From the IMG/VR virus record IMGVR_UViG_3300046522_000083, positions 1-50,217 of that record: 50,217 nucleotides of DNA. One strand, written 5' to 3'. Position numbers and translations under genes: made by a program. Shown here one piece after another: positions 4,007 through 27,946 of the stretch. The notes beneath the pieces were generated by a model. That model was not told where the DNA came from and ran no database searches. It saw nothing but the letters and a program-made list of their open reading frames with translations. This DNA is from a virus. Numbering within the stretch: the stretch's first letter is position 1; the number at the start of each line of letters is the position of its first letter.

Positions 4007-4027
4007 TTCATATAGTCAGTACCAACT
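4007..4027 (-). promoter_or_regulatory. Phage RNA polymerase promoter, copy 3
   Basis: On the minus strand the block GGTACTGACTATATGAA with flanking bases is identical at 4007-4027, 10809-10829 and 14921-14941. Its core ACTGACTATA matches the T7 promoter core ACTCACTATA at 9 of 10 positions. This copy starts 2 nt after the RNA polymerase stop codon and would drive all middle and late genes from 3931 onward, through the window junction. Confidence 0.85.
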
Positions 4028-4029
4028 TT

Positions 4030-6759
4030 TCAGGCGAAGAAGTACGTACTTTCCAGCACTTCCTCAATTTCCAGATCGCCAAGCGAAATTCTCCCGGCGA
4101 CTTTATCCAATTCGTCTGAAGCCAGTTGGCGGGCCTCAATGGGGTCTACGCGGTTCTGCTCGATATAGACAGGCATCATCACGTCAATGCAGCTCTCCCT
4201 GAAGGACCCCAGCAAGTCATGCTTGTGGACATTCACGAAGGCCCTGCGGAGGTTACGGTTGAGGATGTCCATGTTCCCTGCATGGGTCCCCATGTCGTCA
4301 TGCACTGAGGTTAGGGAGGTGACCCCATCATCGACGCAGAGGTTGATGGTCCCTGAGCAGGACGCACCATCCAGAGAGTGGATGTAGTTCGGAGCTATCC
4401 CTTGCTTCTGCTCCTTGAGGCTGAGCCTGTTGTCCCGTTCCCATGCGTACAGCTGAGTGCGCTGCCCGTCTAGGAGGGTCTCGATGGCCTTCCTCTTTGG
4501 CGTGCCGTAGAAGTGGCGGACTACCATGTCGTTAGGGGTGACCCAGAAGATCGGTTGGTCCCCACCCATGGCGGCTGCCGAGGCGCAGTCCTTGAGCCAC
4601 TTCATTACCAGCTGAGCGCCGCGAGTGTGTCGACCTACGGCTTCCCACATGAGCTTCCCTAGGAAGCCTACGTGTTTGCCAAGGGTCTCCCCATCAAGCT
4701 TCGACCATCTGGGGTCCATGTCGTGGTACTCGGTGAGCCACTTGCGGATGTACTGGAAGAAGCTGTCCTTGGTGCCACCATAAGGTACCACCATGACCTG
4801 CCTTTTAGTGAGCGAGCGGGGGAGGTCCCAGTCGCACATCTCCATCCAGAATACCGCACTGTCCCAGCCTACGAGACCCTTGTGGATCATGTCCTCAAGG
4901 ACCTCCTGAAGATCAACAGCTACCACCTTGTAGATGTCGTGCTGCTTACTGTCGGGCACGAGGTTGACCAGTCGGCCTGCCTCGCGGTCCCTACTCAGGG
5001 CTGAAAGGTGCTGGATGCCATTGCATGTGCCATCGACGTGGACCGGGAGGTTGGACAGGAAGCCGTCCCCATGGCGCACGAAGTTGACCCATTCGATGGT
5101 AGCGGCTAGGGCTTGGAACGGCTTGTCACAGTCGTCCTTCGTCCAGTCTCGCGCGCAATCGTAGCCGTCATGTTCTCCTGTAGGATCGTCAGCGATCTTC
5201 TCGAAGCGATCCCACTGGCTTCTGGTCCACTCGATGCGCTCGGGCATGGGAAGCTTGTCTTTTCCCCAGACATTGGCAGTGTGGATAGCAAGCCAGTCAT
5301 CACCATGGTTTCCAGCCGAGACCGGTACCCCGGCGGCAAAGGTAAGGAGACCTTTGGGTAGATCGTTACCTTGGGGCTGGAGGCCTGAGGGGATCGGGTA
5401 GAAGCGTCCCCGCCAGTCGAGCTTATGGGGGAAGTAGATGGCTTCACGGGAGGCGTACCCATTGGCGACCTCCAAGGCCCCCTCAGTCCCTCTTGTGCGA
5501 CCAACGACGCGATTGTTGAAGGCTTTGACTTCGGATGCTTCACGCTTCCACTCCTTGATCTCGTCTGCGAGTGCGCCTTCAGGGGGAGGGAGCTTAATGC
5601 CCCTCCGGGCTGCTTCCCTTCTTGCATTCCGGTCCTCTTCCATGCGTGGAGACCGTGCCGGATAGTCGCGTTCCTTCTGCGCTGGGAGAGAAGCAAACTC
5701 GCACTTCTCCAACCACAAAGCATTGGCTGCCTCTAGGACAGGTACGTTGATCTTCCATGGGGTCTCCTGTAGGGCGTGGATGGTCTTGTAGACCCCCGGC
5801 ATGTCCAAGGCGTCATACTCGTCGGCTGCATTCTGGCCTGCCGTCTCGGCAAGCTTCTTGAAGTGGATGAGTGCTGGGCCGTGGGCGTAGGGGGTGTGGT
5901 ACCCTCCATTCCTCGTGCCCTGCCAGCGCTTCGGGGGGATGACCGTGGGCCAGAGCTTGGGGCTGGTAGCCTCAAGGAGGTCCATGGCGTTGCCGAACTT
6001 GGCGAGAAGCTCGGGCCTGAAGACTAGGACAGTGCTGCCATAGTCCCCCGGCTTGAACGTCTCCGCTACGTGCTCCTTGGTGGTCACAAACCAGCCGGTG
6101 CCCTTCATGACCGCATCTATGAGCATGAAGCCCACGCGGCGCTTAGTCATCTTGGACCACTTATCCCAGTCGATACCGTGGGCAGCGAACGGGGAGGTGG
6201 TGTCCGACTTGGCCTCCTTCAGGAGGTGTGAGAAGGCCCCCTTGTTGACCAGCATCCGGTGCCCGTTGGTCGAGCCCTTGGTGTCCTGATCCTTCTGGAG
6301 GGCGTAGAAGCTCTCTGGGTTCTTGGCCTCCCAGAGGCGCACCTGAAGCTCATGCTCGACGGTAGCCCCTATCTCGTCCGCGAGGGTCAAGATGGTGGCC
6401 TTACCGGCTCCTATGTGGTTCAGGATGTGGCGTACTGCGATGAGTGCTAGGACGTTCTTGTCCGTCCCCCGGCAAAGCTCGAAGGCGTCCTGCTGGGCAC
6501 CTCCACGGCGGTTGTCGTAGTCCCGGTAAGCCTGCTTGATCTGCTGGCCTACCTGTGGGGTCCACTCTTGGATCATGCGACGTACAGGCGCAAGGGCATT
6601 CATACGGTCCTTGGCCTTTGCAGTGATGACTGTATTGCGGAAGGCCTCAGCCCCCGCTTCCATCATGTCCCTTTCCAACTGGACCTGTTCAGGCCACAGG
6701 GGATGGGCTTCCGGGTCCATTCCGGGGACCCAGATTGCAGTCGTATCCATGTAACTCAT
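4030..6759 (-). CDS. Single-subunit DNA-directed RNA polymerase, T7 gp1-like (909 aa)
   Basis: The defining enzyme of this phage group, which transcribes middle and late genes from phage promoters. It has 909 residues (T7 has 883) and all core motifs. DWRGRFYPIPSGLQPQGND precedes motif A (VDGTCNGIQHLSA, catalytic Asp near 576). Motif B is KRQVMVVPYGG (Lys652, Tyr660). APNYIHSLDG corresponds to the T7 His784 region. Motif C is SVHDDMG (catalytic Asp near 821). The C-terminus ends FFA, like the hydrophobic foot FAFA of T7. The start MSYMDTTAIW at 6759 lies 21 nt after the preceding gene, with a modest AAGGGCA site. A phage promoter begins 2 nt beyond the stop, so the polymerase is early and does not depend on that promoter. 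Confidence 0.98.
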   Translation of the reverse strand: MSYMDTTAIWVPGMDPEAHPLWPEQVQLERDMMEAGAEAFRNTVITAKAKDRMNALAPVRRMIQEWTPQVGQQIKQAYRDYDNRRGGAQQDAFELCRGTDKNVLALIAVRHILNHIGAGKATILTLADEIGATVEHELQVRLWEAKNPESFYALQKDQDTKGSTNGHRMLVNKGAFSHLLKEAKSDTTSPFAAHGIDWDKWSKMTKRRVGFMLIDAVMKGTGWFVTTKEHVAETFKPGDYGSTVLVFRPELLAKFGNAMDLLEATSPKLWPTVIPPKRWQGTRNGGYHTPYAHGPALIHFKKLAETAGQNAADEYDALDMPGVYKTIHALQETPWKINVPVLEAANALWLEKCEFASLPAQKERDYPARSPRMEEDRNARREAARRGIKLPPPEGALADEIKEWKREASEVKAFNNRVVGRTRGTEGALEVANGYASREAIYFPHKLDWRGRFYPIPSGLQPQGNDLPKGLLTFAAGVPVSAGNHGDDWLAIHTANVWGKDKLPMPERIEWTRSQWDRFEKIADDPTGEHDGYDCARDWTKDDCDKPFQALAATIEWVNFVRHGDGFLSNLPVHVDGTCNGIQHLSALSRDREAGRLVNLVPDSKQHDIYKVVAVDLQEVLEDMIHKGLVGWDSAVFWMEMCDWDLPRSLTKRQVMVVPYGGTKDSFFQYIRKWLTEYHDMDPRWSKLDGETLGKHVGFLGKLMWEAVGRHTRGAQLVMKWLKDCASAAAMGGDQPIFWVTPNDMVVRHFYGTPKRKAIETLLDGQRTQLYAWERDNRLSLKEQKQGIAPNYIHSLDGASCSGTINLCVDDGVTSLTSVHDDMGTHAGNMDILNRNLRRAFVNVHKHDLLGSFRESCIDVMMPVYIEQNRVDPIEARQLASDELDKVAGRISLGDLEIEEVLESTYFFA

Positions 6760-7271: not shown

Positions 7272-7868
7272 TTACTTCTTGACGACCCAGAAGCGGACGC
7301 CGGGGCCGAACTGCTCGAAGGCCTGATCGTTACCCGTGAAGCCTTCCGCGCGGTCCGCGAACTTCAGGGTGACGAGCTTGCGGTCAGCCGGGGCATTCTT
7401 CTCGTCCTGCCACTTCTTGAACTGGTCGCTGACCTTGGAGCGGACCTCGCCGAGCTTGAGCTTGCGGGGTTCGTTGCCGTGGGTCTTGGCGAACTGGTCC
7501 GTGATGTGCTGGTGGAGACCCAGAGGCGCGAAGGAGTTGGGCGTGAAGTATTTGCCCTCTTCGCGTTCGGTCAGAGCCTTGCCGTAGTTCGCCGTGAAGA
7601 AGGCGCGGTAGGGCAGCTGAGGGGTCGGGCCACCAATGCCCACGAAGTCCTCGTCTTCCGGCAGCTCTTCGTCCAGCTGGACCTCAAGGGAGAAGCTGGA
7701 GAAGTCCGTGGTGGCGGGCTTACGCGGGGCAGGGTCCTGATGCTGCTCGCCTTCCGGCTGCTGGCCTTCAGGTGCCTGCGTGTTGTCGTTGTTGGTGTCC
7801 GGAGCCTGCTCGTTGTTGACTTCCGGGGCGGTGATCTGCTGATCTTCAGTCTTAGGTGTCTTAGCCAT
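7272..7868 (-). CDS. Hypothetical early protein with disordered acidic N-terminus (198 aa)
   Basis: Residues 1-50 are low-complexity and rich in Q, N, E, T and P (NNEQAPDTNNDNTQAPEGQQ), so probably disordered. An acidic patch (EELPEDEDF) follows. The remainder looks folded, with GGPTPQLPYRAFFTANYG and LKLGEVRSKVSDQFKKW. GGAAGGGAAACCCGCA precedes the ATG. It is followed by a strong terminator, which marks the end of an early unit. No family recognised; the acidic nature would suit a protein-binding or DNA-mimic role, but this is speculation. Confidence 0.75.
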   Translation of the reverse strand: MAKTPKTEDQQITAPEVNNEQAPDTNNDNTQAPEGQQPEGEQHQDPAPRKPATTDFSSFSLEVQLDEELPEDEDFVGIGGPTPQLPYRAFFTANYGKALTEREEGKYFTPNSFAPLGLHQHITDQFAKTHGNEPRKLKLGEVRSKVSDQFKKWQDEKNAPADRKLVTLKFADRAEGFTGNDQAFEQFGPGVRFWVVKK

Positions 7869-7926: not shown

Positions 7927-8190
7927 TCAAGACATATAGGGAGGTGTCCCATAGTCGTCAAGAGGGGCATCAAAGATTTCTCCGTAGATCGGAGTGCCAT
8001 CCTCCCGGTGCCCCATGACCTCAAGCTCAGGCTCGTTGTACGGTCCCCCGACGAAGGCCTCAAAGATGAGCCTTTCGAACTCTCTCAGGAAGGCCTCACT
8101 GACCCTCGCATCAAACTCCTCCTTGGTCTCCTCGAAGGGCTTGCCTCCATAAGGCACAAGCATCATGTTCATTCTAGCGGCGTCTGTCAT
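7927..8190 (-). CDS. Hypothetical acidic protein (87 aa)
   Basis: Unrecognised acidic protein: MTDAARMNMMLVPYGG, a helical central part (EEFDARVSEAFLREFERLIF) and an end with REDGTPIYGEIFDAPLDDYG. Its ATG lies inside the last codons of the 53-aa basic gene (17-nt overlap). That ties it to the integrase operon. Confidence 0.68.
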   Translation of the reverse strand: MTDAARMNMMLVPYGGKPFEETKEEFDARVSEAFLREFERLIFEAFVGGPYNEPELEVMGHREDGTPIYGEIFDAPLDDYGTPPYMS

Positions 8191-8335
8191 GGTACTGTCT
8201 CCTAAGCTTGGCCCCGAACCCTTTGAGCAGAGCCTTGATGTTTCTGTACTGGGTGAGCCTGTACTTTCGGAGACCGTGCCGCCTGAAGAATAAGACCCGC
8301 TTGCACTTGCGGCCTACTCTACTGGTCACGGCCAT
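8174..8335 (-). CDS. Very basic 53-aa protein coupled to the integrase; possible excisionase
   Basis: Starts MAVTSRVGRKCKRVLFFRRH and continues GLRKYRLTQYRNIKALLKGF, ending in QYHDRRR. About a third of the residues are Arg, Lys or His. The ATG at 8335 lies inside the final codons of the integrase gene, with GGAGG 8 nt upstream, so it is translated from the same message. Small basic proteins next to integrases are often recombination directionality factors or DNA-binding repressors. No helix-turn-helix can be demonstrated by eye, so the function is inferred from charge, size and position only. Confidence 0.6.
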   Translation of the reverse strand: MAVTSRVGRKCKRVLFFRRHGLRKYRLTQYRNIKALLKGFGAKLRRQYHDRRR

Positions 8336-9089
8336 CTAGGTACCTCCGCATCTCGTTGGTGCGGTAGCCCCCTGTTAGATGGAGATAGCCCATGGTGGTG
8401 TCAATATCGGTATGCCTCAAATACTGGCGGACCATATCGAGAGGCATCCCTAGGTCACTGTGGAGGTGCCTAGCTGCATTACGCCTAAGGGCCTTCAAGG
8501 TGCACGTGTGGTCCTCAGTCTCCCCGAGGATGGCCTTGCAGTCGTCCCACATGCGCTGTAGGGCCCTGAGGTGGATCGCAAACGGCACGTGCCCCCAGCC
8601 TGACCCTAGGGCCTCCACTGCGGCCTGAGAGAGGGGCAGGGTGGCCTGAGAGCCGTGGGTCTTGAGACCGGGGACTGTCACCTCGCGGCGCACTAGGTCG
8701 AGGTTCTTGCGGGTGTCTAGCCTAAGGTTCTCCTCGACGCGAAGGCCCGTGGCGGTGGTCCAGCCTATCCAGCGCTTCATAAGGTCTGGGACCTCAGGGC
8801 TGGCGAGGAGGGTGGCCTTGGCGTTGTCGTTAAGCCACCACTTCAGGCCGTTGTCCAGCTTAGGGCGGTGACCCTTCACGTCCACACCCATCTTGCTGAG
8901 ACAGTTGAGGCGCTTGCGTACTGTGGCCGGTGCCAGATGGCCCCAGCCCCCTTTGGTTTCCTCTAGGTCTCCCTCGGCGTCACAGTAGTCCTCTAGGGCT
9001 AGCTGGGCTTGGGTCTTGAGGGTCTTGCTTGCTGTGCCATAGTGCAGCTTGAAGGCTGCCCATAAGGCTAGGTCCTCTTGGCTTTCCAT
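8319..9089 (-). CDS. int: Tyrosine integrase / site-specific recombinase (256 aa)
   Basis: The C-terminal catalytic domain has the tyrosine-recombinase signature: Arg117 in TGLRVEENLRL, Lys143 in the beta-hairpin (GLKTHGSQ), Lys199-x-x-Arg202 (KALRRNAARHL), His226 (YLRHTDIDTTMGYLHL) and the nucleophile Tyr235. The first box-II residue is Lys where His is most usual, a substitution known in the family. The N-terminal 100 residues are a helical core-binding domain, with no obvious arm-binding domain, so it is a short integrase. It lies upstream of the RNA polymerase, as in integrase-bearing marine T7-like phages, and suggests lysogeny. GAAAGGAGACCCT precedes the ATG. The attachment site is not identifiable here. 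Confidence 0.93.
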   Translation of the reverse strand: MESQEDLALWAAFKLHYGTASKTLKTQAQLALEDYCDAEGDLEETKGGWGHLAPATVRKRLNCLSKMGVDVKGHRPKLDNGLKWWLNDNAKATLLASPEVPDLMKRWIGWTTATGLRVEENLRLDTRKNLDLVRREVTVPGLKTHGSQATLPLSQAAVEALGSGWGHVPFAIHLRALQRMWDDCKAILGETEDHTCTLKALRRNAARHLHSDLGMPLDMVRQYLRHTDIDTTMGYLHLTGGYRTNEMRRYLDGRDQ

Positions 9090-9137
9090 AGGGTCTCCTT
9101 TCCCGAAGAGCGTTCCTATCTAAAGGCAAAAGGACCC

Positions 9138-9181
9138 CTCCTAGCCTAGAGACGCGATACGTGCTGCATCTAGGTGAGGAG
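9138..9181. repeat. Interrupted inverted repeat upstream of the integrase
   Basis: CTCCTAGCCTAG (9138-9149) and CTAGGTGAGGAG (9170-9181) match as inverted arms at 10 of 12 positions around a 20-nt spacer. On the minus strand the second arm is followed by GGGTCCTTTTGCCTTT, so it may act as a terminator for the upstream gene. An integrase binding site or attP is the alternative. The 132-nt gap (9090-9221) holds no gene; a shorter hairpin TCCCC(ATCACT)GGGGA is near 9195. Confidence 0.45.
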
Positions 9182-9221
9182 AGGCCAAGGTGTCCCCATC
9201 ACTGGGGATCACGGGATGGTG

Positions 9222-9818
9222 TTATTCGCCGGAAGCCGAAGCGACCTTGGAGAAGCCTTCGCGGCGCGCGCGGTCCTGCTCTTCCAGCTCTTCCTGCGAG
9301 CGGTAGTTGTCGGCGTTCAGGGCTTCCGAGAGGTCGATGGTCATCGTGTCCGTGCTCACGGTCACAGAGCCGGAACCGAATGCCTCGCCATTTAGAATGG
9401 CCGCTTCGATGGCCTTGATGTCGCCGGAGATTTCGAGGACCTGAGCGACAACGCCCGAGCGGAAGTCTTCGTCAGCGTTCAGCTCGAAGTGCTCGAAGCC
9501 ATCATAGTTCGGATCGGCAGCGATGGCTGCATCAACGTCGTGATCTTCAGGCAGTGCGCGAGCGCCGAGCCAGTCGAGGTCTTCGAAGGCGAGAACCTGC
9601 GGAACCTTCATCTCGGAGGTGTACTTGTCGCCGAGAGCCTGCGAGTAGAACTTGTGGCGCTGGGTGACCTGAGCGACCGTGAGGCCTTCAGCCCATTCCG
9701 GCTTGTCGCCAAGAAGGGAGAGAACTTCACCGGAGATCGGATCGATTTCGATAGCGCCTTCAGCGCCCGACTTGTGGACGACAGAGCGGAGACCGCTGGT
9801 ACCAAAAGAAGATGTCAT
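9222..9818 (-). CDS. Hypothetical early protein (198 aa)
   Basis: Unrecognised soluble acidic protein: MTSSFGTSGLRSVVHKSGAE, a middle part with LAFEDLDWLGARALPEDHD, and a charged helical end (RSQEELEEQDRARREGF). Codons are dominated by GAA, GCC, ATC and TCG, a stricter bias than in neighbouring small genes, which hints at high expression. It sits between its own structured leader (terminator and hairpin at 9854-9925) and the integrase. The GAGGAATACCACAAC leader precedes the ATG. A role early in infection is likely from position only. Confidence 0.75.
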   Translation of the reverse strand: MTSSFGTSGLRSVVHKSGAEGAIEIDPISGEVLSLLGDKPEWAEGLTVAQVTQRHKFYSQALGDKYTSEMKVPQVLAFEDLDWLGARALPEDHDVDAAIAADPNYDGFEHFELNADEDFRSGVVAQVLEISGDIKAIEAAILNGEAFGSGSVTVSTDTMTIDLSEALNADNYRSQEELEEQDRARREGFSKVASASGE

Positions 9819-10603: not shown

Positions 10604-10909
10604 CTAAAACCAACCGGCAAGGGCCCCCACGATACAAATTGAAATAGCCGCCAAGCCGCCACAGATGGCCCACAGCGCTAACGAAGCGTCGGGGGCTACT
10701 GGTACAGCCGGAGGAGGCGGAAGCAACTGTATGGCGTTCTGTGGTCTGTGCACGATGGTGCGGCGACCGTCTGGACTGACGCCCAAAGGCAAGCTTTGAG
10801 CTTCACCTTTCATATAGTCAGTACCAACTCCAGAAACGCCAAAAGCCGCCCCATGAGGAGCGGCCTTTCGGTTAGTCTTTTCGCGGGGGAAGCGGATGAC
10901 TTCACCCAT
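10604..10909 (-). CDS. C-terminal-anchored membrane protein containing a phage promoter (101 aa)
   Basis: Begins MGEVIRFPREKTNRKAA, has a proline-rich middle (QLLPPPPAVPVAPD) and ends in a transmembrane segment (LALWAICGGLAAISICIVGA). The phage promoter at 10809-10829 and a terminator-like hairpin at 10841-10868 both lie inside the frame; the promoter encodes the segment VGTDYMKGE. It is unclear whether the whole frame is translated or only a product from the internal ATG just below the promoter. The ATG at 10909 overlaps the upstream gene by 8 nt. Confidence 0.5.
   Translation of the reverse strand: MGEVIRFPREKTNRKAAPHGAAFGVSGVGTDYMKGEAQSLPLGVSPDGRRTIVHRPQNAIQLLPPPPAVPVAPDASLALWAICGGLAAISICIVGALAGWF
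10809..10829 (-). promoter_or_regulatory. Phage RNA polymerase promoter, copy 2
   Basis: Identical to the copies at 4007-4027 and 14921-14941 (core ACTGACTATA). The transcript would start near 10808 and almost at once form a hairpin (GCTCAAAG, loop CTTGC, CTTTGGGC; 10781-10801). It can drive the early genes below it, including the integrase and the RNA polymerase itself, giving positive feedback. It lies within a coding frame. Confidence 0.85.
10841..10868 (-). terminator. Terminator-like hairpin directly upstream of promoter copy 2
   Basis: On the minus strand AAAGGCCGCTCC, loop TCAT and GGGGCGGCTTTT form a 12-bp stem with two wobble pairs; its 3' arm ends in TTTT. It ends 11 nt before the phage promoter, so it may stop upstream transcription and insulate the promoter. 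It lies within the coding frame of the 101-aa gene. Confidence 0.5.
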
Positions 10910-13800: not shown

Positions 13801-13803
13801 CTC

Positions 13804-13908
13804 TCAGACCTCCCAAAGCACGGAAACAACGAAGCGGAGGCCCATATAGGCCATGGCGGCTGCCGGTGCTAACACATGCAATATGTGTGCTTGCTCTACA
13901 ATATTCAT
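13804..13908 (-). CDS. First early gene: membrane microprotein (34 aa)
   Basis: Reads MNIVEQAHILHVLAPAAAMA, then YMGLRFVVSVLWEV, with a single hydrophobic helix. It has an excellent ribosome-binding site (GTAGGAGGAGC) and is the first open frame after the gene-poor region, so it should be among the first products of infection. Its stop is 3 nt before the next start. T7 uses this position for host-takeover proteins, but no similarity is visible. Confidence 0.6.
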   Translation of the reverse strand: MNIVEQAHILHVLAPAAAMAYMGLRFVVSVLWEV

Positions 13909-13952
13909 GGGTGATGCTCCTCCTACAGAGTGTTACCCGTTGTCAAAGAACG

Positions 13953-13968
13953 CTAGGCTAGTGCCTAG
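13953..13968 (-). promoter_or_regulatory. CTAGGC leader hairpin before the first early gene
   Basis: CTAGGC (13953-13958), a 4-nt loop and GCCTAG (13963-13968) form a perfect stem. About 25 nt downstream on the transcript comes TGTAGGAGGAGC, the ribosome-binding site of the first early gene. It is the same arrangement as at 13042-13063. Confidence 0.4.
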
Positions 13969-14100
13969 TAGTGAATGCCTCCGGGGCTGGGCCTTTGAGG
14001 AGAAGTGGCCAGCTCGTTGTTAACGGTCGGGCCTCGCTTCCATCCCCTCGGGGTCTGTATCCCTTTGGTCTCGCGTCCTGCCCCGCTATGTGTTGGATGT

Positions 14101-14128
14101 AACCGCCAGTCCAACCGCTCGCCAGTCC
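14101..14128. repeat. Short tandem repeat in the junction region
   Basis: AACCGCCAGTCC (14101-14112) is followed at once by AACCGCTCGCCAGTCC (14113-14128): the same 12 bases with a 4-base insertion. The first unit also forms a 6-bp stem with GTTGGA at 14092-14097. Purpose unknown; it may be a protein-binding site or part of a structured leader. Confidence 0.45.
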
Positions 14129-14204
14129 TTACGTGCTTAGGCTTCCCGACTTCGTTGCTACCCTAGGGGCCGGTGAAGTGGTCCGGTCGTTTCCGATGAC
14201 CAAA

Positions 14205-14233
14205 CCATTAAAGTGATTTGCTGAGAGGGTCAA
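14205..14233 (-). promoter_or_regulatory. Sigma70-like early promoter candidate
   Basis: On the minus strand TTGACC (14228-14233), a 17-nt spacer and TAATGG (14205-14210). It is about 290 nt upstream of the first early gene, where host RNA polymerase must begin transcription. The -35 is 5 of 6 to consensus; the -10 is weaker. Other hexamers in the region were less convincing. Confidence 0.5.
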
Positions 14234-14488
14234 GCCCCTCAAAGAAGAAAAGTGCACAGACCCTCACTCAATCATTGGTCGGTCACTCATAGCCCAAGCT
14301 GATGCCCTGCCTTAGAGTGGCCTAGTGGGTCTAGTCCCCTGATGGCCCACTACCTGCCCCAACCACATGCTATCCATCAGGCCCCCTACCCTATGAGGTG
14401 TAGACCCTTCCCTCTGTACTCAGAGTGTCCAAGTGGCATAGGCACAGATGTATTCTCAAGGCCAAGCCCAATGCACACCCAATGAGGA

Positions 14489-14561
14489 GAGGACATGACA
14501 GGCCCCTCAATGCCCTACTGCCCGCCTGCCCTCATGTCGTGTCCTCAGGTAAGGACATGAC
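14489..14561. repeat. Three copies of an 11-bp GAGGACAYGAC element in the junction region
   Basis: GAGGACATGAC at 14489-14499, its inverted form GTCGTGTCCTC at 14536-14546, and AAGGACATGAC at 14551-14561. The spacing and mixed orientation look like binding sites for a protein such as terminase or a replication/transcription factor. The position, in the expected packaging junction, fits a pac-like role. This is inference. Confidence 0.45.
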
Positions 14562-14804
14562 GCGCCGCACCTCAGGGTAGGCCCAAGGGCCAAAGGGTGG
14601 CACCCCGCCAACCCCTGAGTGTAAAGGCACGGGCGGGAGGCGGCACGGGGGGAAATCCCGCTCGGCCCTACCACGAGGAGACCTCTGAGATACGTGACCC
14701 CTAGGGTACTTCGGGGTAGGCATGGGGTGCTAGGCTTCAGGGGTCTATCCCTCATCACTGGTGTGTCCCCTCTGGTGTGCCTTGAGGGGTAGGCTACTAG
14801 GTCA

Positions 14805-14868
14805 CTCTGAGCAGGGCTACTGTCTCTTAAGGTCTTACCTCTTGCTCAGAGGGAACACCTTAAGGAGA
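14805..14868. repeat. Two interlocking inverted repeats near the presumed genome end
   Basis: CTCTGAGCA (14805-14813) pairs perfectly with TGCTCAGAG (14843-14851). TCTCTTAAGGT (14823-14833) pairs with ACCTTAAGGAGA (14857-14868) with one extra base. The two stems overlap, so they are mutually exclusive. They lie just downstream of promoter copy 1. Palindromes near the T7 right end are involved in making the terminal repeat, which is one possible role. Confidence 0.5.
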
Positions 14869-14920
14869 CTAGATGATGATAAGGGTCTATCACACTAAGG
14901 TATAGACTTTGAGACTCCCC

Positions 14921-14941
14921 TTCATATAGTCAGTACCAACT
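14921..14941 (-). promoter_or_regulatory. Phage RNA polymerase promoter, copy 1
   Basis: Identical to the copies at 10809-10829 and 4007-4027. It lies 92 nt beyond the large terminase stop and points into the gene-free junction. The new transcript can form GTCTAT...ATAGAC (14885-14907). By position it resembles T7 phiOR, which helps replication and packaging, and it can also read into the early genes. Confidence 0.85.
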
Positions 14942-15032
14942 CCCCCGATTTGTATATGTCCCCGCCGAGTTACAACTTTTTGGTTGCAGTCCCGGCGAGG
15001 AGAATTTTTCTCATGGAAAGCTTGCGCGAAGC

Positions 15033-16973
15033 TTACCGTTGCTGGATGCGAGCAGCGTTTACACGAGTGTCCTTACGCTGGCCCTCAGAGCCCCGCATAA
15101 CGGCTTCGTCGTGTTCCCGTAGTATCTGCTCTAATATGTCCTCCTCGCGCTCCTGTCGACGCTGGCGGGCCATTCCAACGGGATCAATCCCCAGCTTTTC
15201 AGCTAGCATCCCGATGGCGCACGCGAGGGCTTCTAGGCGGTCGTCTTCGCGAAGGGAGTCCTTCTCCTTGGTCAGGTGGGTGAACTGGTAGAACAGGGAG
15301 TAGTATTTCCGGTTCTCCTCGCCGTCCACGTCCTCCAGCGACCTCAGGTCACTATTGATCACCTCGCGGTTTACAACGAGCCTGTGGCCTTGTGTGACCG
15401 GCTCAAGCACACTCAGAATGCGTTGTTCCTTGAACTGGTTCCCCGATTTGACTTCCGTGATGGTCGTCCCACCATGCTCGGAGGTCTTGTGGTTCTCGTT
15501 CCACCGGGCCCACGCTTTGTGGACTGCGGGGCTCACAAGCTTCAAGAACATGCCATCACCGAAGTTGCCTTCAATGAACAGCTCGGAGATGCGGTACCTC
15601 ACGCACAAGGACCCGATGGTATCCAAGGTGCTGTCCTCGTAGCCCTTCCTCGTTGCGTAGACGCGCTGGAGGAAGACCCGACCGTTGAGCAGGGAGAGGA
15701 CAATCATGGCCGTCTCGTTGGCCCCTCGCCCCGAAGGGTCCACGAAGCCAATCGTCAGGTCATAGGGCGCGAAGTGGTCGCCAACGTAGACCGGCTGATG
15801 GTAGAAGTCCCCATCGAAACCGGTAAGCGGAAGGTCGAGGTCCCGGTGGGTAGTGCCCCATGCCAGCTCCTCGGGGCCCCGCTTGTCTTCGAGGTCCATG
15901 ACAATAAGGTCCCGAAGCTTCAAGGGATACTTGTCGCTGTCGTTCAGGGCCATGTTGAGCATGAACTGGAGGCGGAACTCCGAGAGGCCCATAGCGGCGC
16001 GGCGCTGGGCTAGGTCCTCGTCGGTGAAGCGCATCGGCATGGTAGACTTACCGATACACGTGGGGCCGAGCTTCCTGATCTGCGCATCGATGTACGGGGC
16101 GAGCATCCCCTTGTAGACCTTGCGCTCTTCCTCGGAGGGATAGAGGGCTGTCCAGATGCGAGCCTGATAGACCGGAGACCCATCATCATTCTTGAGAGCC
16201 AAGAGGTGGAGATACAGGGACTCGGCATCGTGTGGGGTGCCAAGGTACTTGATCTCACCACCGGGGACCAGCACGGACTCGAACTCCTTGACGGCCTCGC
16301 GTATCTTCTCGCGCATGACCACAGTGAGAGAGTTCGTCTGGGTTTCCACGTCGTCAGGGATGATCAACGAACCACGGAAACCGACAAGCTGGCCCCCGAT
16401 GCCGAAGGCTGTAAAGGATGCAGACTGTGCAGGGACGCAGTTGCCCACGTCGAACATGGTGGCCGACTGTCTGTTGTTGGCCTTGGGCCTCAGCTCCGCG
16501 AGGATGTCCATCGTCATGATCAGCGAGAGGCACCAGTTGGAGGTTGCCTGCGCACGCATGAGGGAGCCGGAGACCACCATCACCTTCTCGTTTGGGTCCC
16601 TCAGGAGCCGCCACAGAGCATACGCCCCGGTGATCCAGCTCTTGGAGAAGCCTCGGAAGGCCATGATGATCGACCGCGAGGGCCCATGCTGGAGCCAATA
16701 GGCCATGTCCAGCTGGATGGGGTTCGGGTCGTTGCCTAGGAGATGCCGCCAGACGAGCGTGAGGAAGACCCGGAAGTCGCCTTTGACCCTCTCCATGAAG
16801 GTCAGGCCGGGGAGCTTCTGATCCGCCGGGTGCGGGCCTGTCAGCTCATAGCTCGTGGGGTTGGAAAGCTGCTTGTGAGGGGCCAGAGGGAGAGCAAGCT
16901 CAGAGGCCAGCGGTTCGCCAGCCTCCTTGCGTGCTTCCTTCAGGACCTTCAGGGGGTCTTTGAAGTTAGCCAT
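15033..16973 (-). CDS. terL: Terminase large subunit, T7 gp19-like (646 aa)
   Basis: DNA packaging motor and nuclease. The ATPase domain has a T7-type variant Walker A (FRGFSKSW, Lys near 111) and an acidic Walker B (LIIPDDVE, about 203-210). The C-terminal nuclease shows GFVDPSGRG (Asp near 412) and LFIEGNFGDG. It ends with a charged tail (MARQRRQEREEDILEQILRE). At 646 aa it is slightly longer than T7 gp19 (586). The ATG at 16973 overlaps the previous stop by 8 nt. It is the last late gene, followed by a hairpin-rich region and promoter copy 1, as in T7. Confidence 0.95.
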   Translation of the reverse strand: MANFKDPLKVLKEARKEAGEPLASELALPLAPHKQLSNPTSYELTGPHPADQKLPGLTFMERVKGDFRVFLTLVWRHLLGNDPNPIQLDMAYWLQHGPSRSIIMAFRGFSKSWITGAYALWRLLRDPNEKVMVVSGSLMRAQATSNWCLSLIMTMDILAELRPKANNRQSATMFDVGNCVPAQSASFTAFGIGGQLVGFRGSLIIPDDVETQTNSLTVVMREKIREAVKEFESVLVPGGEIKYLGTPHDAESLYLHLLALKNDDGSPVYQARIWTALYPSEEERKVYKGMLAPYIDAQIRKLGPTCIGKSTMPMRFTDEDLAQRRAAMGLSEFRLQFMLNMALNDSDKYPLKLRDLIVMDLEDKRGPEELAWGTTHRDLDLPLTGFDGDFYHQPVYVGDHFAPYDLTIGFVDPSGRGANETAMIVLSLLNGRVFLQRVYATRKGYEDSTLDTIGSLCVRYRISELFIEGNFGDGMFLKLVSPAVHKAWARWNENHKTSEHGGTTITEVKSGNQFKEQRILSVLEPVTQGHRLVVNREVINSDLRSLEDVDGEENRKYYSLFYQFTHLTKEKDSLREDDRLEALACAIGMLAEKLGIDPVGMARQRRQEREEDILEQILREHDEAVMRGSEGQRKDTRVNAARIQQR

Positions 16974-17442
16974 TGAGTTTCGCGTAGTCCTCAGGCGTCA
17001 GGTAATGCAGGAGGTCATCAGCGTCGCGGGTTACGCCCTTTCGGCCCTTCAGCTCAGCGGTGACATCGATCTTGATGCCGCCCGTAACCTGCCGGGGGTT
17101 GGTGTGCGTTGTGGTGTAAGTCTCCTCATCACCAACGACATCATGCTTGGACTCCGAGTCAAACCGGAGGTAGGGCTTGCCGGGATGGATTGCCTTGACG
17201 ACACCAAACACAATGCCAGAGCCGCGCCGACCGCCAATGTGCCAGCACACCTTGTCGCCGACCTTGATGGGAATGCCCTTCAGGTCAACAGGCTCAGAGG
17301 TGTCAGGAACCGGATCAGGCAGGACCTCGGGGTAGACGTTGACGAAACGCCTCGTCTTGATGCCATCACGATAGCCCGGAAACTCCTGCGTCGTGGAGAC
17401 ATAGAGGCCTCCCCAGTTGTTAGTCTTTGTGTTCTGAGCCAT
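16966..17442 (-). CDS. Hypothetical protein with SH3/KOW-like barrel between the terminase genes (158 aa)
   Basis: Residues 55-95 (IKVGDKVCWHIGGRRGSGIV, then KAIHPGKPYLRFDS) have the alternating strand pattern of a small KOW/SH3-like barrel. The N-terminus (NNWGGLYVSTTQEFPGYRDG) and a helical C-terminus (TRDADDLLHYLTPEDYAKL) flank it. It lies between the small terminase and the large terminase, where T7 has its spanins. This is no spanin, since it has no signal or membrane segment. A DNA- or protein-binding role in packaging is possible but not shown. Confidence 0.7.
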   Translation of the reverse strand: MAQNTKTNNWGGLYVSTTQEFPGYRDGIKTRRFVNVYPEVLPDPVPDTSEPVDLKGIPIKVGDKVCWHIGGRRGSGIVFGVVKAIHPGKPYLRFDSESKHDVVGDEETYTTTHTNPRQVTGGIKIDVTAELKGRKGVTRDADDLLHYLTPEDYAKLNG

Positions 17443-17515
17443 CGCGGACCCCAGCCTTGAGGAGGAGCCAATTGGCCACGTAGATCACAGCTGCCCAAAT
17501 CGGGTAGAGGTTCAT
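17420..17515 (-). CDS. Membrane microprotein after the small terminase (31 aa)
   Basis: Reads MNLYPIWAAVIYVANWLLLK, then AGVRDGSEHKD: one transmembrane helix and a short tail. The ATG overlaps the small terminase stop (ATGA), and the 3' end overlaps the next gene by 23 nt. Function unknown. Confidence 0.5.
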   Translation of the reverse strand: MNLYPIWAAVIYVANWLLLKAGVRDGSEHKD

Positions 17516-17808
17516 TGCAGATACTCCGGGGTCTCGAAGTCGGGCAGCTCAAGGGGTTCCCTTATCGGGGGCCGTTGAGTACTGTCCGGAAGGGTTAGCC
17601 CGAGGGTGAGACCATTGTCCCTCAGGATGTTGCGGAGGATCGCCATCTCTTGGTGAGAGGCAGTCCCAAGGCGGCACTTGCCGACGAGCCTTGCGAAGAG
17701 GGCCTTTCGACCCTCCTCAAGGATTTCCTCAAGGGACTTGCCCATGAGGTCATCAAACTCGGACTGCTCCGCCTTGTTGTCGGTGAAGTCGTCCTCGCTG
17801 TCCGCCAT
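17512..17808 (-). CDS. terS: Terminase small subunit, T7 gp18-like (98 aa)
   Basis: Acidic N-terminus (MADSEDDFTDNKAEQSEFDD), then a helical core (SLEEILEEGRKALFARLVGK and ASHQEMAILRNILRDNGLTL) as in gp18-type packaging proteins. T7 gp18 has 89 residues. The position, two genes before the large terminase, agrees. It would recognise the concatemer and assist the packaging motor. Confidence 0.8.
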   Translation of the reverse strand: MADSEDDFTDNKAEQSEFDDLMGKSLEEILEEGRKALFARLVGKCRLGTASHQEMAILRNILRDNGLTLGLTLPDSTQRPPIREPLELPDFETPEYLQ

Positions 17809-17810
17809 GC

Positions 17811-18251
17811 TTAGTAGCCGACTGCCTTGGACAGGTCGATGGTATCGCGGATGCGAACTGCACCACGCACAGCGCCGCCACCATTGAAGGCAGCATCGAC
17901 GTTGATGGCGATGAGGTCACCGGCGAGGACCTTGCGCAGAGCAGAGCCGTTCTCGGTTGCCTCGGCCTTCTGGCGGAAGCCAGCCTCAGCCGCGTTGGCG
18001 ACCGTGATGGTAGCGCCGGGTACGTCTGCAAGGGCAGCAATGGCGTCAGAGCCATCAGCAATGCCCGTGGCGCGCTGCACCTTGATGACGCCGCCCGTGA
18101 CGATAACCGTCTGGACCACGAGGTCGATGCCCTCGATGTAGCCATCAGTCGGTGCATAGAAGTATTGCGGGGTGCCTGCGGAGAGGTCCGTCGCGTTGAC
18201 TTCGAACGGCACGCGGACGACGGTACCGGCCTTGAGGGTATTCTTGCCCAT
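17811..18251 (-). CDS. Probable virion protein, beta-rich (146 aa)
   Basis: Gly/Ala/Val-rich with strand pattern: MGKNTLKAGTVVRVPFEVNA, VVQTVIVTGGVIKVQRATGI and RGAVRIRDTIDLSKAVGY. Codon use is strongly biased (GGC, ACC, ATC), as in the capsid gene, which suggests abundant expression. It lies between a holin candidate and the small terminase. It could be a head decoration or fibre protein, but no specific family can be named. Confidence 0.7.
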   Translation of the reverse strand: MGKNTLKAGTVVRVPFEVNATDLSAGTPQYFYAPTDGYIEGIDLVVQTVIVTGGVIKVQRATGIADGSDAIAALADVPGATITVANAAEAGFRQKAEATENGSALRKVLAGDLIAINVDAAFNGGGAVRGAVRIRDTIDLSKAVGY

Positions 18252-18262
18252 GAAGGGACTCC

Positions 18263-18556
18263 TTACTTGATGAGAGCTATGACCCCGAGCAACACGCCCG
18301 GGAGTGACAGCAGGATGGGAACTAAGTAGCCCGCGAGGTCAAACCCCCCGGACTGCTTTTGGGCTTGGGCCTCCAGAGCCCTGAGGCGAACCTCATGGTC
18401 AGCCGTCACCTCGTCTTGGACTTTGGTGAGGTACTCGATGCCCATAAGGGCCTTCTGGATGCCAAGGGAAATCTCCTCGACCTTCTCGTAGGTCAGGGAG
18501 GCATAGGGTGGACGGCCCCGGCGTGGGGCCTCCATGTCTTCTGTGGTGTCAGCCAA
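18263..18556 (-). CDS. Holin candidate at the T7 gp17.5 position (97 aa)
   Basis: A charged helical N-terminal part (SLTYEKVEEISLGIQKAL, then VTADHEVRLRALEAQAQKQ) precedes a C-terminal membrane segment (AGYLVPILLSLPGVLLGVIA). T7 places its holin gene 17.5 between tail fibre and small terminase, and this gene holds that position. The likely start is TTG 18556 with GGAGGT 8 nt upstream; an ATG seven codons later is the alternative. The C-terminal-anchor topology differs from a classic holin, so a coiled-coil membrane accessory is also possible. Confidence 0.6.
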   Translation of the reverse strand: MADTTEDMEAPRRGRPPYASLTYEKVEEISLGIQKALMGIEYLTKVQDEVTADHEVRLRALEAQAQKQSGGFDLAGYLVPILLSLPGVLLGVIALIK

Positions 18557-18968
18557 CGTCAGGGACCTCCATCTGGGCTGCCCACATCCACAGGCTGTCC
18601 ATCTCGGCTGGGGTCAGACCCATGGCCGTTGCGAGGAGGTTGATCCTTGGGTCTTCCCGATGGTACTCGGTGACATCCTCGATCATGATCCGGATGCCCT
18701 CCTTCTCGAACTCCGAGAGCGGCATTGCGGCGATGGCCTGATAGACATCCTGCTTGGTGACCGGCGTGCCCAACTGGAGGGCGGTAAGCCACAGCTGCCA
18801 CTTCTTGAGAGCCGGAAAGGCTTCTTCGAGACCTAGAGGATCGCGCAGGTATTTCGCAATGGCTGGCTCTTGGTCGTCGTGAGGGCTCAGGGCAAGGCCC
18901 GCCTGTGGCGACCAGTAAACCCCGGTGATCTTCCCGAGGCTATCCGATTGTACGTAAACTGTGGTCAT
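18549..18968 (-). CDS. Tail-fibre-associated protein, possibly chaperone or attachment adaptor (139 aa)
   Basis: Starts MTTVYVQSDSLGKITGVYWS, with a strand-turn repeat followed by PQAGLALSPHDDQEPAIAKY. This is the style of small proteins that follow tail fibre genes. The rest is helical (VTKQDVYQAIAAMPLSEFEK, INLLATAMGLTPAEMDSLWM). The ATG at 18968 overlaps the tail fibre stop (ATGA), which ties its translation to the fibre. A role in fibre assembly is inferred from place only. Confidence 0.62.
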   Translation of the reverse strand: MTTVYVQSDSLGKITGVYWSPQAGLALSPHDDQEPAIAKYLRDPLGLEEAFPALKKWQLWLTALQLGTPVTKQDVYQAIAAMPLSEFEKEGIRIMIEDVTEYHREDPRINLLATAMGLTPAEMDSLWMWAAQMEVPDVG

Positions 18969-20509
18969 CCCCAAAGCCTCTTGCATTGATAATCGATCCA
19001 CCCGCCACTGAAGAAGGATACCGAGAAGGACCCTGCCCCGCTGATTGAACGTGCCAGCTGCCCGGAGGTATTAGTGGTTACCGGTACGAAGCTGGCCTCT
19101 GCTCTATCAGAGCCATCTGACCCTAGGCGCGTGCCTATTGTGCATCCCCCTAGGACCGTTGTGGGGCCTACAGTTGATGGCCCAACATAGGCAACAAGGT
19201 CTGGTGACCCTGCGGCGTTACTGACGCTAGCCGAAGCCGAGATCAGGGCCCGCACTGAGATGCCAATCGGGATAGTGGTGAGGGTGAACAAAGCCCATGC
19301 GGCACTTGAACCGGTGGTGAACAGGGCGGTAGCCACAGTCCGAACTTGATTGCCGTCCTGCACGAATGGCATTATCTGCCCTGAGCTGTTAGTGAGGATG
19401 CACCCCACCCTGCTCCCCGAGAGTACCTCCCAGCCAGTCAGGTTGGTCATGTTGACCCCACCCTCGGTGGCAGACAAGGAGGCGACGAAGCCGGTGTTGC
19501 CCGTGGATATCTGCCGCACAGCGTACACGAAGTACGTCTTGCTGGCCTGAAGGACACCAGTGTCCAAGCATCCAGAGCCAGACCCGAAGACAGCTGCAAG
19601 GCTGCATGTGGTGCTGCCTACAGTGAAGTGCTTCTTGCCCCCGAAGAACCCGAAGCCAGCCCCAACGGTAAACGCTGTGGTGGTCGAGTAGGCGGGTACG
19701 AAGCCGGTCATGAAGTCCAGCAGGAGGGTGCCCCCAAGCCATTGCAGGAAGCCAAACCCCCAGCGTCCCTTCTTGGGTGCAAAGGAGGCTGCGCTGTCAA
19801 GCAGCAGGAACTCATCGGCATCAACGGGGGTCTTCTCGGCGTAGCCGTGGATGGTAGTGCTTAGAGCATTGACCACATAGGCATAGGCCTTCTGGGCCCA
19901 GTGGAACGCGGAGTATTGCCCACCAGAGACAACGGAGTCTTCTGGGTTGTTGGCCCACTGCTGTGCCAAAGAGGCAGAAGCCGCTGCGTTGGCCTCGGAG
20001 ATGTCCGCCTGTATTGACGCGTTGACCGCATCGGTGGCAGCGGCAGCAGCCCCAGCAATGTCCGCCACGTCGAAGCCGGGGATGATATTCCCATCAGCAT
20101 CAAACATCGCTACATCACCGTCACCGCCCTTGGTGATAGTGCCACCACGTCCTGCCGCTGCGGTTATCCACCCACCAGCCTCAGAGTCACCCTGCCGGTC
20201 GGCAGCTTCCGCCGCAACGAAGAGTGCCTGAAGGATGGCATAGTTGAGGTCCGAGGAGTCGAGGTTGCCCGGTTGGAATTCCGTGAGGGGATCGCCGGGA
20301 GTGGTTCTCCGCACCTCGCCGGGAGTCCCATTGACTGGGGCCCCCGCCGTGATGTGTATGGTGGCCTCATCGGTCCACGTGTAGGCGCTCGGGTCGATCA
20401 GCACACCGTCAACCTTGAGGGAGACATGCGACTGGTCTAGGTACCCGAAGGTCACCGCCACGTTCGCCGTGGTGCCGTCGAAGGTAAATTTACGGTAGCT
20501 GCTTGCCAC
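18965..20509 (-). CDS. Tail fibre protein, T7 gp17-type N-terminus (514 aa)
   Basis: The first 150 residues match the T7 tail-fibre attachment domain: FGYLDQSHVSLKVDGVLID, RRTTPGDPLTEFQPGNLDSS and YAILQALFVAAEAADRQGD. This part docks on the tail. The rest is Ala/Gly/Ser/Val-rich and beta-structured, with no catalytic motif visible, so it is a receptor-binding part. With 514 residues it is near T7 gp17 (553). It lies directly after the gp16-like core protein. Confidence 0.9.
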   Translation of the reverse strand: MASSYRKFTFDGTTANVAVTFGYLDQSHVSLKVDGVLIDPSAYTWTDEATIHITAGAPVNGTPGEVRRTTPGDPLTEFQPGNLDSSDLNYAILQALFVAAEAADRQGDSEAGGWITAAAGRGGTITKGGDGDVAMFDADGNIIPGFDVADIAGAAAAATDAVNASIQADISEANAAASASLAQQWANNPEDSVVSGGQYSAFHWAQKAYAYVVNALSTTIHGYAEKTPVDADEFLLLDSAASFAPKKGRWGFGFLQWLGGTLLLDFMTGFVPAYSTTTAFTVGAGFGFFGGKKHFTVGSTTCSLAAVFGSGSGCLDTGVLQASKTYFVYAVRQISTGNTGFVASLSATEGGVNMTNLTGWEVLSGSRVGCILTNSSGQIMPFVQDGNQVRTVATALFTTGSSAAWALFTLTTIPIGISVRALISASASVSNAAGSPDLVAYVGPSTVGPTTVLGGCTIGTRLGSDGSDRAEASFVPVTTNTSGQLARSISGAGSFSVSFFSGGWIDYQCKRLWG

Positions 20510-20514
20510 CTACG

Positions 20515-23500
20515 TTACTCCTGTGTGTCTTGAGGTGCTGCGGCAGCTGGGCTGTCCGTAAGCTCACCCGCCATGCCATCCACCATGCTCTTCAGGGCCT
20601 CTACGCCCTTCTTGGGGGCTGGCCACTCAGGGTGCTTGGCACGAACCTTCGGGAACTGCGTGAGGTCCCTCTGGGTCTGCTTCATGATGGCCTTGCGGAA
20701 CTCGGGGTCACGCCGCATCAGGCCTAGGGCCCTCTTGCTTGCGACCTCCCGGCGTCCTGCTAGCAGGTTAAGCTTGGTGCCGTGCACATCGGCTGGGCCA
20801 TCAGGGGCATTCCGGTAAGCTTCCGACTTCATGAAGTGCGCCATCTGCTGACGCATGTTCTTCATCCCCGGAGCCTGCCAGATGAGTTCCTGATAGCGGT
20901 CATAGGCATTCTTGCCATCGGACATCTTAACCGTGGTGAGGTCCACCCCAAGCTGCTGCTTAGGCATGGCCGAGAAGGTAGACCCATTCTGAAGCTGAAG
21001 GCGCTCCATCTCGCGGTCCACAAGGCTGTTCTCAGCGGTTGACATCATGCCCGGATGTGCAACCATAGGCTCGCCCATCCAGTTGCGCTTGTAGGGCAGC
21101 TCGTCAGAGAAGCCCGGAGTGACCTGCATCAGGGCATCCACCATGGAGCGGGCATCCCTGAGGTGTTCGTCACCAGAGAAGCCGTTCTCATAGCGCGTGA
21201 AGCCCGAGAGTGGCACCATGGACTGAGCCTGAGACTTCAGCCAGTTGTTGAGGGCTGCCTGCTTGCCTTCGGTCCCTGCGGACTCGACTGCATCCAGCAC
21301 CTGAGCGATGCCTTGGAGGTAGCTCTTCTGCTGAAGCTGCTTGACGGTTGCCAGACCGATTGACCCGAAGGCGCTCATTAGCTGGGCACCCATGGTTTCC
21401 TCGTTGCCATCGTACTCAATGGCGTGCATAGCATCCACTACGTCTGCCACCATGCCGAACACGGAGGCTACCGGGTCAAGGCGCTGGAGGCTGTAGAAGT
21501 CCCGCTTACCATCATCACGCTCATGGACGAACGCATAGGGCTTCCACCCTTCGGCTATCATCTGTGCGCGCTGCTTGGGGTCCGTTGGGCCACCGCCTGT
21601 GAACTTCCCGGCCAGCACGAGGCTTGCAGCAGTGCCCAAGAAGGCAGTACCCAAGGCCATCTGACCCATTGCCTGTGCCCGAATGGTCGCATCAGGGCTA
21701 GCCAGCATCCCACGGTACTCCTTCTGGAGGAGATTAAGCACCGGGGTGTACTTTACGCCATACCTGAGGGCATTCGTCGGGGTCTTCACGAACGGGATAA
21801 AGAACTTCGCCGTCCAGTGGTTGTTCCTGAAGTTCATGATGCTCTTGCCCCAAGACCCCGGAAGGAGGTCCTGCTGGAGAGTAGCGATCTTTGCCTCAGT
21901 TTCAGCCCCCGAGTTGGTCGCCCTGCCCTCAGCGTCGAACGCTGTGGAGAGAGCATCGTTGACTTTGCCCTTGATGTAGGCCTTTTTGCCAGCTGCATTC
22001 AAGCTTCCATCCGCCATAGCCTCAAGGGAGGCCTTCACGTGTGCCTCTGCGGCCACTTTCGAGCGGTAGGTGATCTGCTTGGCCAGCTCATCCGCACCAT
22101 TGAGCAACCTTGTGGGTGTCCCAAGGAGCGTCATGGGCACGCTCACCGTGTTGTAGATGATATTGCCGATGCTGTCGAAGGGCCTGAAGTACCCTGCCCC
22201 GATGGGTTGGGCACCGGGGATGTCCGTTTGGAGCCTGCCACCCATGCGATCCGGGTTGGCTTGGCTGAAGTGTGGGCTCAAGATGCTGTCACCACGGAGC
22301 ATAGCCCGGATGGAGGTCTTGAGGGAGTCCATGATGCCGGTAGCTGCGTAGCTGTACTGGAGGGCAGCCTCTTTGGCCACCCCTAGGCTTGCTGCGCGGC
22401 CCCTGATGGCCTGAACCCCTGCGTCGAGCGGAGACCCGATCAACCGTTCAGCCGGTCGTAGGATGCCGAGAACCGTGTTGCCGATGGTGTTGGACATGAT
22501 GGTCACCGGGGACGAGATCAGGTTGTTCACCCGCATGTACGTCGCGATGTCCTGCGCCTTCTCGACCCACGTGGGGTTCCGAAGGAGCTGCGTCATGCCA
22601 CCGGGGTTGCCCTTGGTGTCCAAGATCATGTCGACCAAGGCACTCGGGTCCGAGTTCTTGAGGAGCCTTGCGAAGTCCTTGCCCTTGATGTTGTCGAAGG
22701 GCAGCACGTCACGGCGCATCATCCGGAGCATCCGGCCCGCGTTGGACGAGAAGTTGTCCATGACCCCACCGAGGCTGGCCGCGATGCTCATCTTCTGGCG
22801 AAGGCTCTCAATGATCAGCGGGTCTGTGAGGGACCCTTCAGCTTTCATCTTCGAGGCTGTCCGGTAGACATCCATCTGGGCCGAAGAGTACATATCCATG
22901 ACGGCATTCATCTTGGCCGACATCAGGTTGAGGTCCCTGCCCTCCTGCTGGAGAGCTGCGAGGCCTGCCGATGCGTCACGACCGAAGGCGAGCTTGTACT
23001 TGGTGGCCAGCGCCTTGGTGGCGTCGTCCCCCTGCACTCCCCCGCTGTATGCCTCAATGCGGTCACCCGCCTGCTGCATCACGCGCGTCATGAAGTTCTC
23101 GAAGTCCTGATCCGAACGGAACTTGCCATAAGGGATGTGATCCGAGTTGCCGAAGTTGTGGCCGTTGATGACAGCACCGTAGTACCCATCACCCTCGTAC
23201 ATCGCCTTGGCGTCCTCGGAGGCCTTCTTCAGGACTGCCGCCGTGTCCTCGGTAGAGAAGTCGATGATCGGCTTGTATGCTGCGGTCCCCTTGGTGGGGT
23301 CTACAGGACCACCGACCTCGCGGTACTTACCCACTGCCTCTGAGGGCCCGCCCGGAAGTACGTCCGTGGCTGCACCGGGTGCCGCATTGTCGCCGGGAAG
23401 TCCTTGGCCCGCCACTGGCTCTCCAGACTGCTGTGCTGGAGGTAGCTCACCTTGGTTCCCTGCTGGTATAGCGTCACCGGGAGCCCCTGTGGGACCCGGA

Positions 23501-24495: not shown

Positions 24496-24504
24496 TATGG
24501 GTCC

Positions 24505-27423: not shown

Positions 27424-27432
27424 GATGTCTCC

Positions 27433-27942
27433 TTAAGAGGGTAGCGGTGTGGTGGCCTTCTTGTATCCCGTAAAGGCCGAGATACCAGAGGACGCGATCC
27501 CCGCGATCAGGCTCAATGGGCTCGGTGCCGACACGGAGTTGATCCGGCCTTGCGCCTGCGTGTTGATGCCCTTGGACTGCTGGGATAGCTGCTGCATGAT
27601 ATTGAAGGTGTTCTCCTCCTCGATCTGCCTGTTGTAGGCCGCTCGTCGGGAGACATCCGATAGGAGGTTGTCAACTGATATGCCGCTCACCCCAGCAGCT
27701 GCCGCACTGACGCTGACATCGGCCTGTGCCTCTGCCTGCTCAAGTCTGCTCTGGCGCTCCTTCTGGGCGAGGGCCTGTTGCTCCTGCATACGGCGCTGGG
27801 TGATCTGGGCCTGCTGGTCCTTCCACGCGGACACCGTGTTCTTGGCGTTGTCGTTGGCCTCCCTCCTCTGAGCACTGTACTGGCTGATAGCCTGCACGGT
27901 ACCCACTGCAAAGGTGAGAAGCCCTAGGGCTAGCTGGCCCAT
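27433..27942 (-). CDS. Internal virion protein, T7 gp14-like (169 aa)
   Basis: A hydrophobic N-terminus (MGQLALGLLTFAVGTVQAIS) is followed by a long Gln/Glu/Arg-rich coiled-coil helix (TQRRMQEQQALAQKERQSRL) and a Gly/Ala/Ser-rich C-terminus (LIAGIASSGISAFTGYKK). T7 gp14 has 196 residues, a similar membrane-active layout and the same place before gp15. In T7 it inserts into the outer membrane during ejection. Confidence 0.85.
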   Translation of the reverse strand: MGQLALGLLTFAVGTVQAISQYSAQRREANDNAKNTVSAWKDQQAQITQRRMQEQQALAQKERQSRLEQAEAQADVSVSAAAAGVSGISVDNLLSDVSRRAAYNRQIEEENTFNIMQQLSQQSKGINTQAQGRINSVSAPSPLSLIAGIASSGISAFTGYKKATTPLPS

Positions 27943-27946
27943 AGCT

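Follow-up and report, generated by a model that had tools for sequence, protein, structure and literature searches.

An arm-less tyrosine recombinase upstream of the RNA polymerase gene in a T7-like phage genome and its relatives

Integrases encoded upstream of the RNA polymerase (RNAP) and temperate T7-like phages are already known (PMC10134795, PMC8776855), and low-frequency integration, with no stable lysogens, has been described for T7-like cyanophages (PMC8776855). In the collinear genomes of phages P-SSP7, S-TIP37, HTVC019P, Pasto and LUZ100, a tyrosine recombinase gene lies immediately upstream of that of the T7-type RNAP. The genome analysed here has the same organisation, but its enzyme differs from the integrases of these phages in having no arm-binding domain and a KxxR box II, and the genome has neither a tRNA-Leu attP nor a MarR-like gene. 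Simple recombinases have no arm domain, and arm-less integration has a precedent in the mycobacteriophage Brujita, the Int of which integrates and excises without the need for a recombination directionality factor, or RDF (PMC8138268, PMC7194413), whereas P2-type integrases, the closest in sequence profile, carry the arm-binding domain that is lacking here (PMC8138268).

A T7-like genome with a recombinase of simple domain composition

The window, that is, the whole stretch of DNA analysed (50,217 nucleotides), is a complete T7-like genome of 50.2 kb, circular or end-redundant, with its main genes on the minus strand. Genes were found for TerL, capsid, connector, DNA polymerase, helicase-primase, ligase and RNAP (909 aa; positions 4030-6759, minus strand; PF00940). 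The single-subunit RNAP, T7-type TerL, capsid, connector, helicase-primase and collinear gene order place the genome among the T7-like phages (Autographiviridae in the broad sense), with an RNAP displaying at most ~30% identity to the best phage records; no close relatives of the integrase, the RNAP or the 53-aa ORF described below were found in viral contigs. The terminal repeat is 127 nt long and probably corresponds to the assembler's k-mer rather than to a physical terminus, because the repeat of a relative (G004) has exactly the same length. Another feature of this genome is a 16-nt element, GTACTGACTATATGAA, present in three exact copies on the minus strand (0.09 expected), located after the RNAP (4007-4022), upstream of the X-int-RNAP genes (10809-10824) and after TerL (14921-14936); these T7-promoter-like copies are candidate phage-RNAP promoters. 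The last of them lies within ~1.2 kb after TerL (13801-15032) without clear minus-strand genes, which is possibly a genome-end or packaging region.

The recombinase gene (8319-9089, minus strand; 256 aa) lies 1.6 kb upstream of the RNAP, in the relative position reported in the initial annotation, and is the only tyrosine recombinase gene of the genome. Its product matches Pfam Phage_integrase (PF00589, E=9.5e-12) and a PHROG integrase family (E=1.4e-14) and has a complete R-K-H/K-R-H/W-Y active site (R117, K143, K199, R202, H226 and Y235), on which grounds it was assigned to the tyrosine recombinases. The six catalytic positions are invariant in the alignment of short enzymes (17/17), and box II has the form KxxR, with K199 in place of His, a replacement common to all 17 homologues. 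The C-terminus (YLxLTGGY) is intact, the frame is open and codon-position GC is coding-like; for the one close pair of short enzymes, from two chromosomal elements, dN/dS was 0.08. CTAG is crowded in this gene (13 in the 1 kb at ~8218-9217, versus ~2 per kb overall), which also has many CTA leucine codons.

The initial annotation described this integrase as complete, which is true of the catalytic domain, with its six active-site residues, and of the core-binding domain, but not of the arm-binding domain, which is absent: 82 residues precede the catalytic domain, and the open frame (266) allows at most 10 more. The enzyme thus has the make-up of the simple, Brujita-type recombinases, with core-binding and catalytic domains only, rather than that of the arm-binding, or complex, integrases. 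The nearest folds and profiles, based on a structure model of moderate confidence (mean pLDDT 70.7, weak at the C-terminus), are those of the simple recombinases XerD, XerA, Cre and Brujita Int (Foldseek match to 5vfz, E=4e-4, 19% identity in the fold alignment). Brujita infects a different host phylum, and the likeness is one of domains and fold, so that membership of the IntBrujita subgroup is putative; moreover, in related mycophage systems attP lies inside a repressor gene, whereas no repressor was recognised in the window. The Xer and Cre proteins have the same domain make-up and provide the best profile and fold matches, but the gene considered here occupies a phage early-gene locus and no dif/lox-type site was identified. 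The best PDB sequence-profile match was the integrase of P2 (IntP2 subgroup; 5c6k, E=5e-10). P2 needs a directionality factor.

No core-type inverted repeat common to the clade was found near the arm-less gene. In the window, an imperfect inverted repeat (9138-9181, minus strand; arms of 11/13 nt, 18-nt spacer) lies between gene X and the integrase and is more likely to be a terminator than a recombinase core, because its spacer is too long for such a core and TTTT follows. In the relative G005 (L028, ~2660-2710), the region upstream of int contains CTGGGCAACTA-GGTTTCGT-TAGTTGCCCAG, a perfect inverted repeat (arms of 11 nt, 8-nt spacer) that resembles a recombinase core site and was not found in the other members.

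Phylogeny and neighbouring genes of the arm-less clade

Searches with TerL and RNAP identified many collinear phages, and a recombinase was matched at more than 20 of the RNAP-bearing loci, usually immediately upstream of the RNAP. In the recombinase tree, the short enzymes formed a clade of 17 members (support 97/92), of which ten come from virus records, including the window, two from prophages and five from chromosomal elements. Its sister group (99/94), joined to it with support of 100/97, contains the full-length integrases of L033, L035, L037, G010, G015 and G020, which have ~100 residues ahead of the SAM-like core-binding domain. A tRNA-Leu adjoins the integrase in four of these six (L033, L035, L037 and G010), the other two lying outside the tRNA scan. 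This topology indicates common descent of the window enzyme and the tRNA-Leu integrases encoded upstream of the RNAP in temperate T7-like phages, and a supported clade of arm-less recombinases, sister to full-length integrases, is new as judged from these sequences; narrow queries of a partial library found no paper on the arm-less clade or on its coexistence with second integrases.

The window has an integrase upstream of the RNAP, as in the temperate T7-like module, but neither tRNA nor T-arm fragments were found in it, and there is thus no tRNA-Leu attP beside int. MarR_2 matches, weak and below the family cut-off, occur upstream of int in G015, G016 (=L035) and G020, and clearer MarR-like genes in the more distant marine-type relatives G025 and G026; the family scan gave no such match in the window. 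The corresponding place, occupied by a MarR-like gene in the marine-type relatives L057 and L061, is taken by gene X (9222-9818, minus strand; 198 aa), a conserved protein encoded directly upstream of the integrase, which has no known domain and no significant family match, and for which identity with a known regulator was rejected. The earlier statement that no repressor is recognisable was upheld for the main modules and the early region, where no match to a repressor family, not even to a MarR-like gene, was obtained; the helix-turn-helix scan covered part of the small ORFs of the window.

A 53-aa very basic ORF (8174-8335, minus strand; pI 12) overlaps the integrase stop codon. It starts inside the end of the integrase gene (by ~16-17 nt) and is preceded by a GGAGG site, as previously noted; this site is 7 nt from the ATG. 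The 53-aa ORF ends 17 nt within the next ORF (7927-8190, minus strand), which encodes an acidic 87-aa product with no significant family match and has its own Shine-Dalgarno sequence (AGGAG). The 53-aa ORF is probably a lineage-specific gene, because its codon-position GC (0.48/0.44/0.76) resembles that of real genes. Its proposed function as an excisionase or directionality factor, by contrast, was not supported: no homologue was detected in 50,697 phage records or in viral contigs, there was no Pfam or PHROG family match, and the single-sequence model consisted of one low-confidence helix rather than a winged-helix fold. Nor do the relatives retaining the enzyme conserve the frame, an outcome that the initial annotation itself had taken to count against the proposal; at the recombinase stop codon, G003 (88 aa), G005 (69 aa) and L041 (47 aa) each have an overlapping or adjoining ORF for a different protein. 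Overlap with the integrase is therefore characteristic of the position rather than evidence for a dedicated partner. Many relatives, G004 among them, share a small ORF (pattern LPLxRSF...G...RRDPxTGL) between int and gene Y; the possibility that the 53-aa ORF is a frameshifted copy of it was rejected, as there was no match. Gene Y (7272-7868, minus strand; 198 aa), which is close to the recombinase gene in phages and immediately adjacent to it in chromosomal elements, is a more constant neighbour of the short enzyme than the 53-aa ORF and is present also in G004, which lacks the enzyme; it has no significant known family, and identity with a known regulator was again rejected.

Integrated relatives and second recombinases

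The initial annotation had suggested a search of bacterial genomes for the integrated phage, and a genome scan with the short-enzyme alignment yielded two T7-like prophages with identifiable att cores. In Aminobacter sp. HY435, the prophage extends over two contigs, with the RNAP split between them, and its contiguity is therefore inferred; the core, TATGTCAATA, lies just upstream of phaC, and the flanks meet without interruption, as an empty site, in seven relatives. In Methylobacterium ajmalii, the prophage sits between two copies of a 22-bp core, ATCATGCAAAGGCTGCACGAGC, and the joined flanks give a continuous frame resembling the terminase large subunit of another prophage (named by sequence reading alone). 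The T7-like prophage thus interrupts the terminase gene of another prophage (G007 C106, 17560 and 68072; loci L118 and L121).

The existence of these prophages indicates that relatives of the window phage are temperate; for the window enzyme itself, integration is a candidate role. However, the recombinase at the junction is not the short enzyme in either case: it is a 567-aa protein with a DUF6538 domain, ~55 nt from the core, in Aminobacter, and a 430-aa protein beside the 22-bp core in Methylobacterium. The short enzyme (301 aa in Aminobacter) is encoded upstream of the RNAP in both prophages, with the junction ~2.5 kb away in Aminobacter and ~10 kb away in Methylobacterium. From their positions, we infer that the junction-adjacent enzymes did the integrating. 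The suggestion that the arm-less enzyme is the lysogeny integrase is therefore weakened, the part of it that stands being the temperate nature of the relatives. In G004, a 565-aa relative of the Aminobacter 567-aa enzyme is the sole recombinase, the short enzyme being absent. The record of G005, from an isolate dataset, has an ATG at its start and a stop codon at its end; it was not used as proof of integration, because there is no correspondence between its ends and the junctions of the Aminobacter prophage.

Among the ten virus records with a short enzyme, some of which are fragments, seven carry that recombinase only (G000, G003, G005, G012, G013, G021 and G022) and three carry a second one (G011, G017 and G019). 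In all six genomes with chromosomal copies (G007, G008, G085, G156, G009 and G122), a second tyrosine recombinase was found nearby. The difference between chromosomal copies and free viruses (6/6 versus 3/10; p ~0.01, for related lineages, some incomplete records and a post hoc grouping) suggests that stable integration requires more than the arm-less enzyme.

Some of the chromosomal copies belong to conserved elements of Hyphomicrobiales (G085 C1, 2220881-2235278; G156 C18, 189079-199940; G122 C32, ~14161-28367; G009 C92, 50205-65766) that share gene Y, the arm-less recombinase, another integrase and a gp16-like protein of 1.5-1.6 kaa, a relative of the internal virion protein of T7-like phages. 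The large protein of G085 has a weak ADP-ribosyltransferase-like segment, and the arm-less recombinase of the G009 (Labrys) element is present as a tandem pair. The interpretation of these elements as prophages was rejected, since neither TerL nor RNAP was matched in them and their content is limited to recombinases, Y and the gp16-like protein; they are possibly phage satellites or remnants.

Possible roles of the arm-less enzyme

The explanation that we consider best, albeit tentatively, is that the window phage has an active arm-less recombinase conferring weak or transient, reversible integration. The enzyme would recombine short core-type sites, with neither arm sites nor a directionality factor, as Brujita integrase does, and the 53-aa protein would then not be needed for direction. 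In the window phage, which has no other tyrosine recombinase, integration would occur at a non-tRNA site, whereas stable lysogeny in the clade, where visible, would come from a second, canonical integrase that this phage lacks. The second recombinase near every chromosomal copy and the lack of a core-type inverted repeat common to the clade speak against this explanation. The likeness to simple recombinases, the RDF-free action of Brujita Int and the low-frequency integration of cyanophages led us to favour this explanation over one in which the arm-less enzyme no longer integrates and serves in Cre/Xer-like circularisation or dimer resolution, any second integrase performing the integration. 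This alternative is possible, although somewhat less probable. It would account for the different integrases at the att junctions of both integrated relatives, for the retention of all catalytic residues by an arm-less gene lying at a distance from those junctions, and for the association of this gene with Y in those chromosomal elements where a further integrase is present, but most members have no lox/dif-like site near the gene, the exception being the 11-8-11 repeat of G005, seven virus records carry this recombinase alone, and the gene remains at the former integration locus.

Two further explanations appear improbable. The window phage might be a classical temperate phage with an ordinary integrase, the 53-aa protein as its excisionase and an attP that escaped recognition near the gene, as could be suggested by the location upstream of the RNAP, for which T7-like phages such as P-SSP7 and LUZ100 offer parallels (PMC10134795, PMC8776855), and by the good Shine-Dalgarno sequence of the overlapping basic ORF; the lack of an arm-binding domain, a tRNA att and a MarR match in the window argues against it, as does the replacement of the 53-aa ORF, itself without homologues or family, by other ORFs in relatives. 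It is equally unlikely that the phage is now lytic and keeps the gene as a decaying remnant of a lysogeny module that it has lost: the N-terminal domain, att site and MarR gene are indeed missing, and the branch in the tree is long (1.06), but the active site and C-terminus are intact, in an open frame with coding-like GC.

It is conceivable, if somewhat doubtful, that this T7-like clade of Hyphomicrobiales uncoupled an old integrase from lysogeny, with the loss of the arm domain and tRNA site, retention of the enzyme for circularisation or resolution, and lysogeny through separately acquired integrases, one of which targets the terminase gene of a rival prophage. For T7-like phages, lysogeny cannot be concluded solely from an integrase gene beside the RNAP, a point that is currently disputed. 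The graded series running from full integrases with a tRNA, through arm-less enzymes alone, to arm-less enzymes accompanied by another integrase makes the gain and loss of lysogeny testable, and two of its att sites are defined, in sequenced isolates of Aminobacter and Methylobacterium. The arm-less clade may also be a source of a simple recombinase, independent of an RDF, from phages of Alphaproteobacteria.
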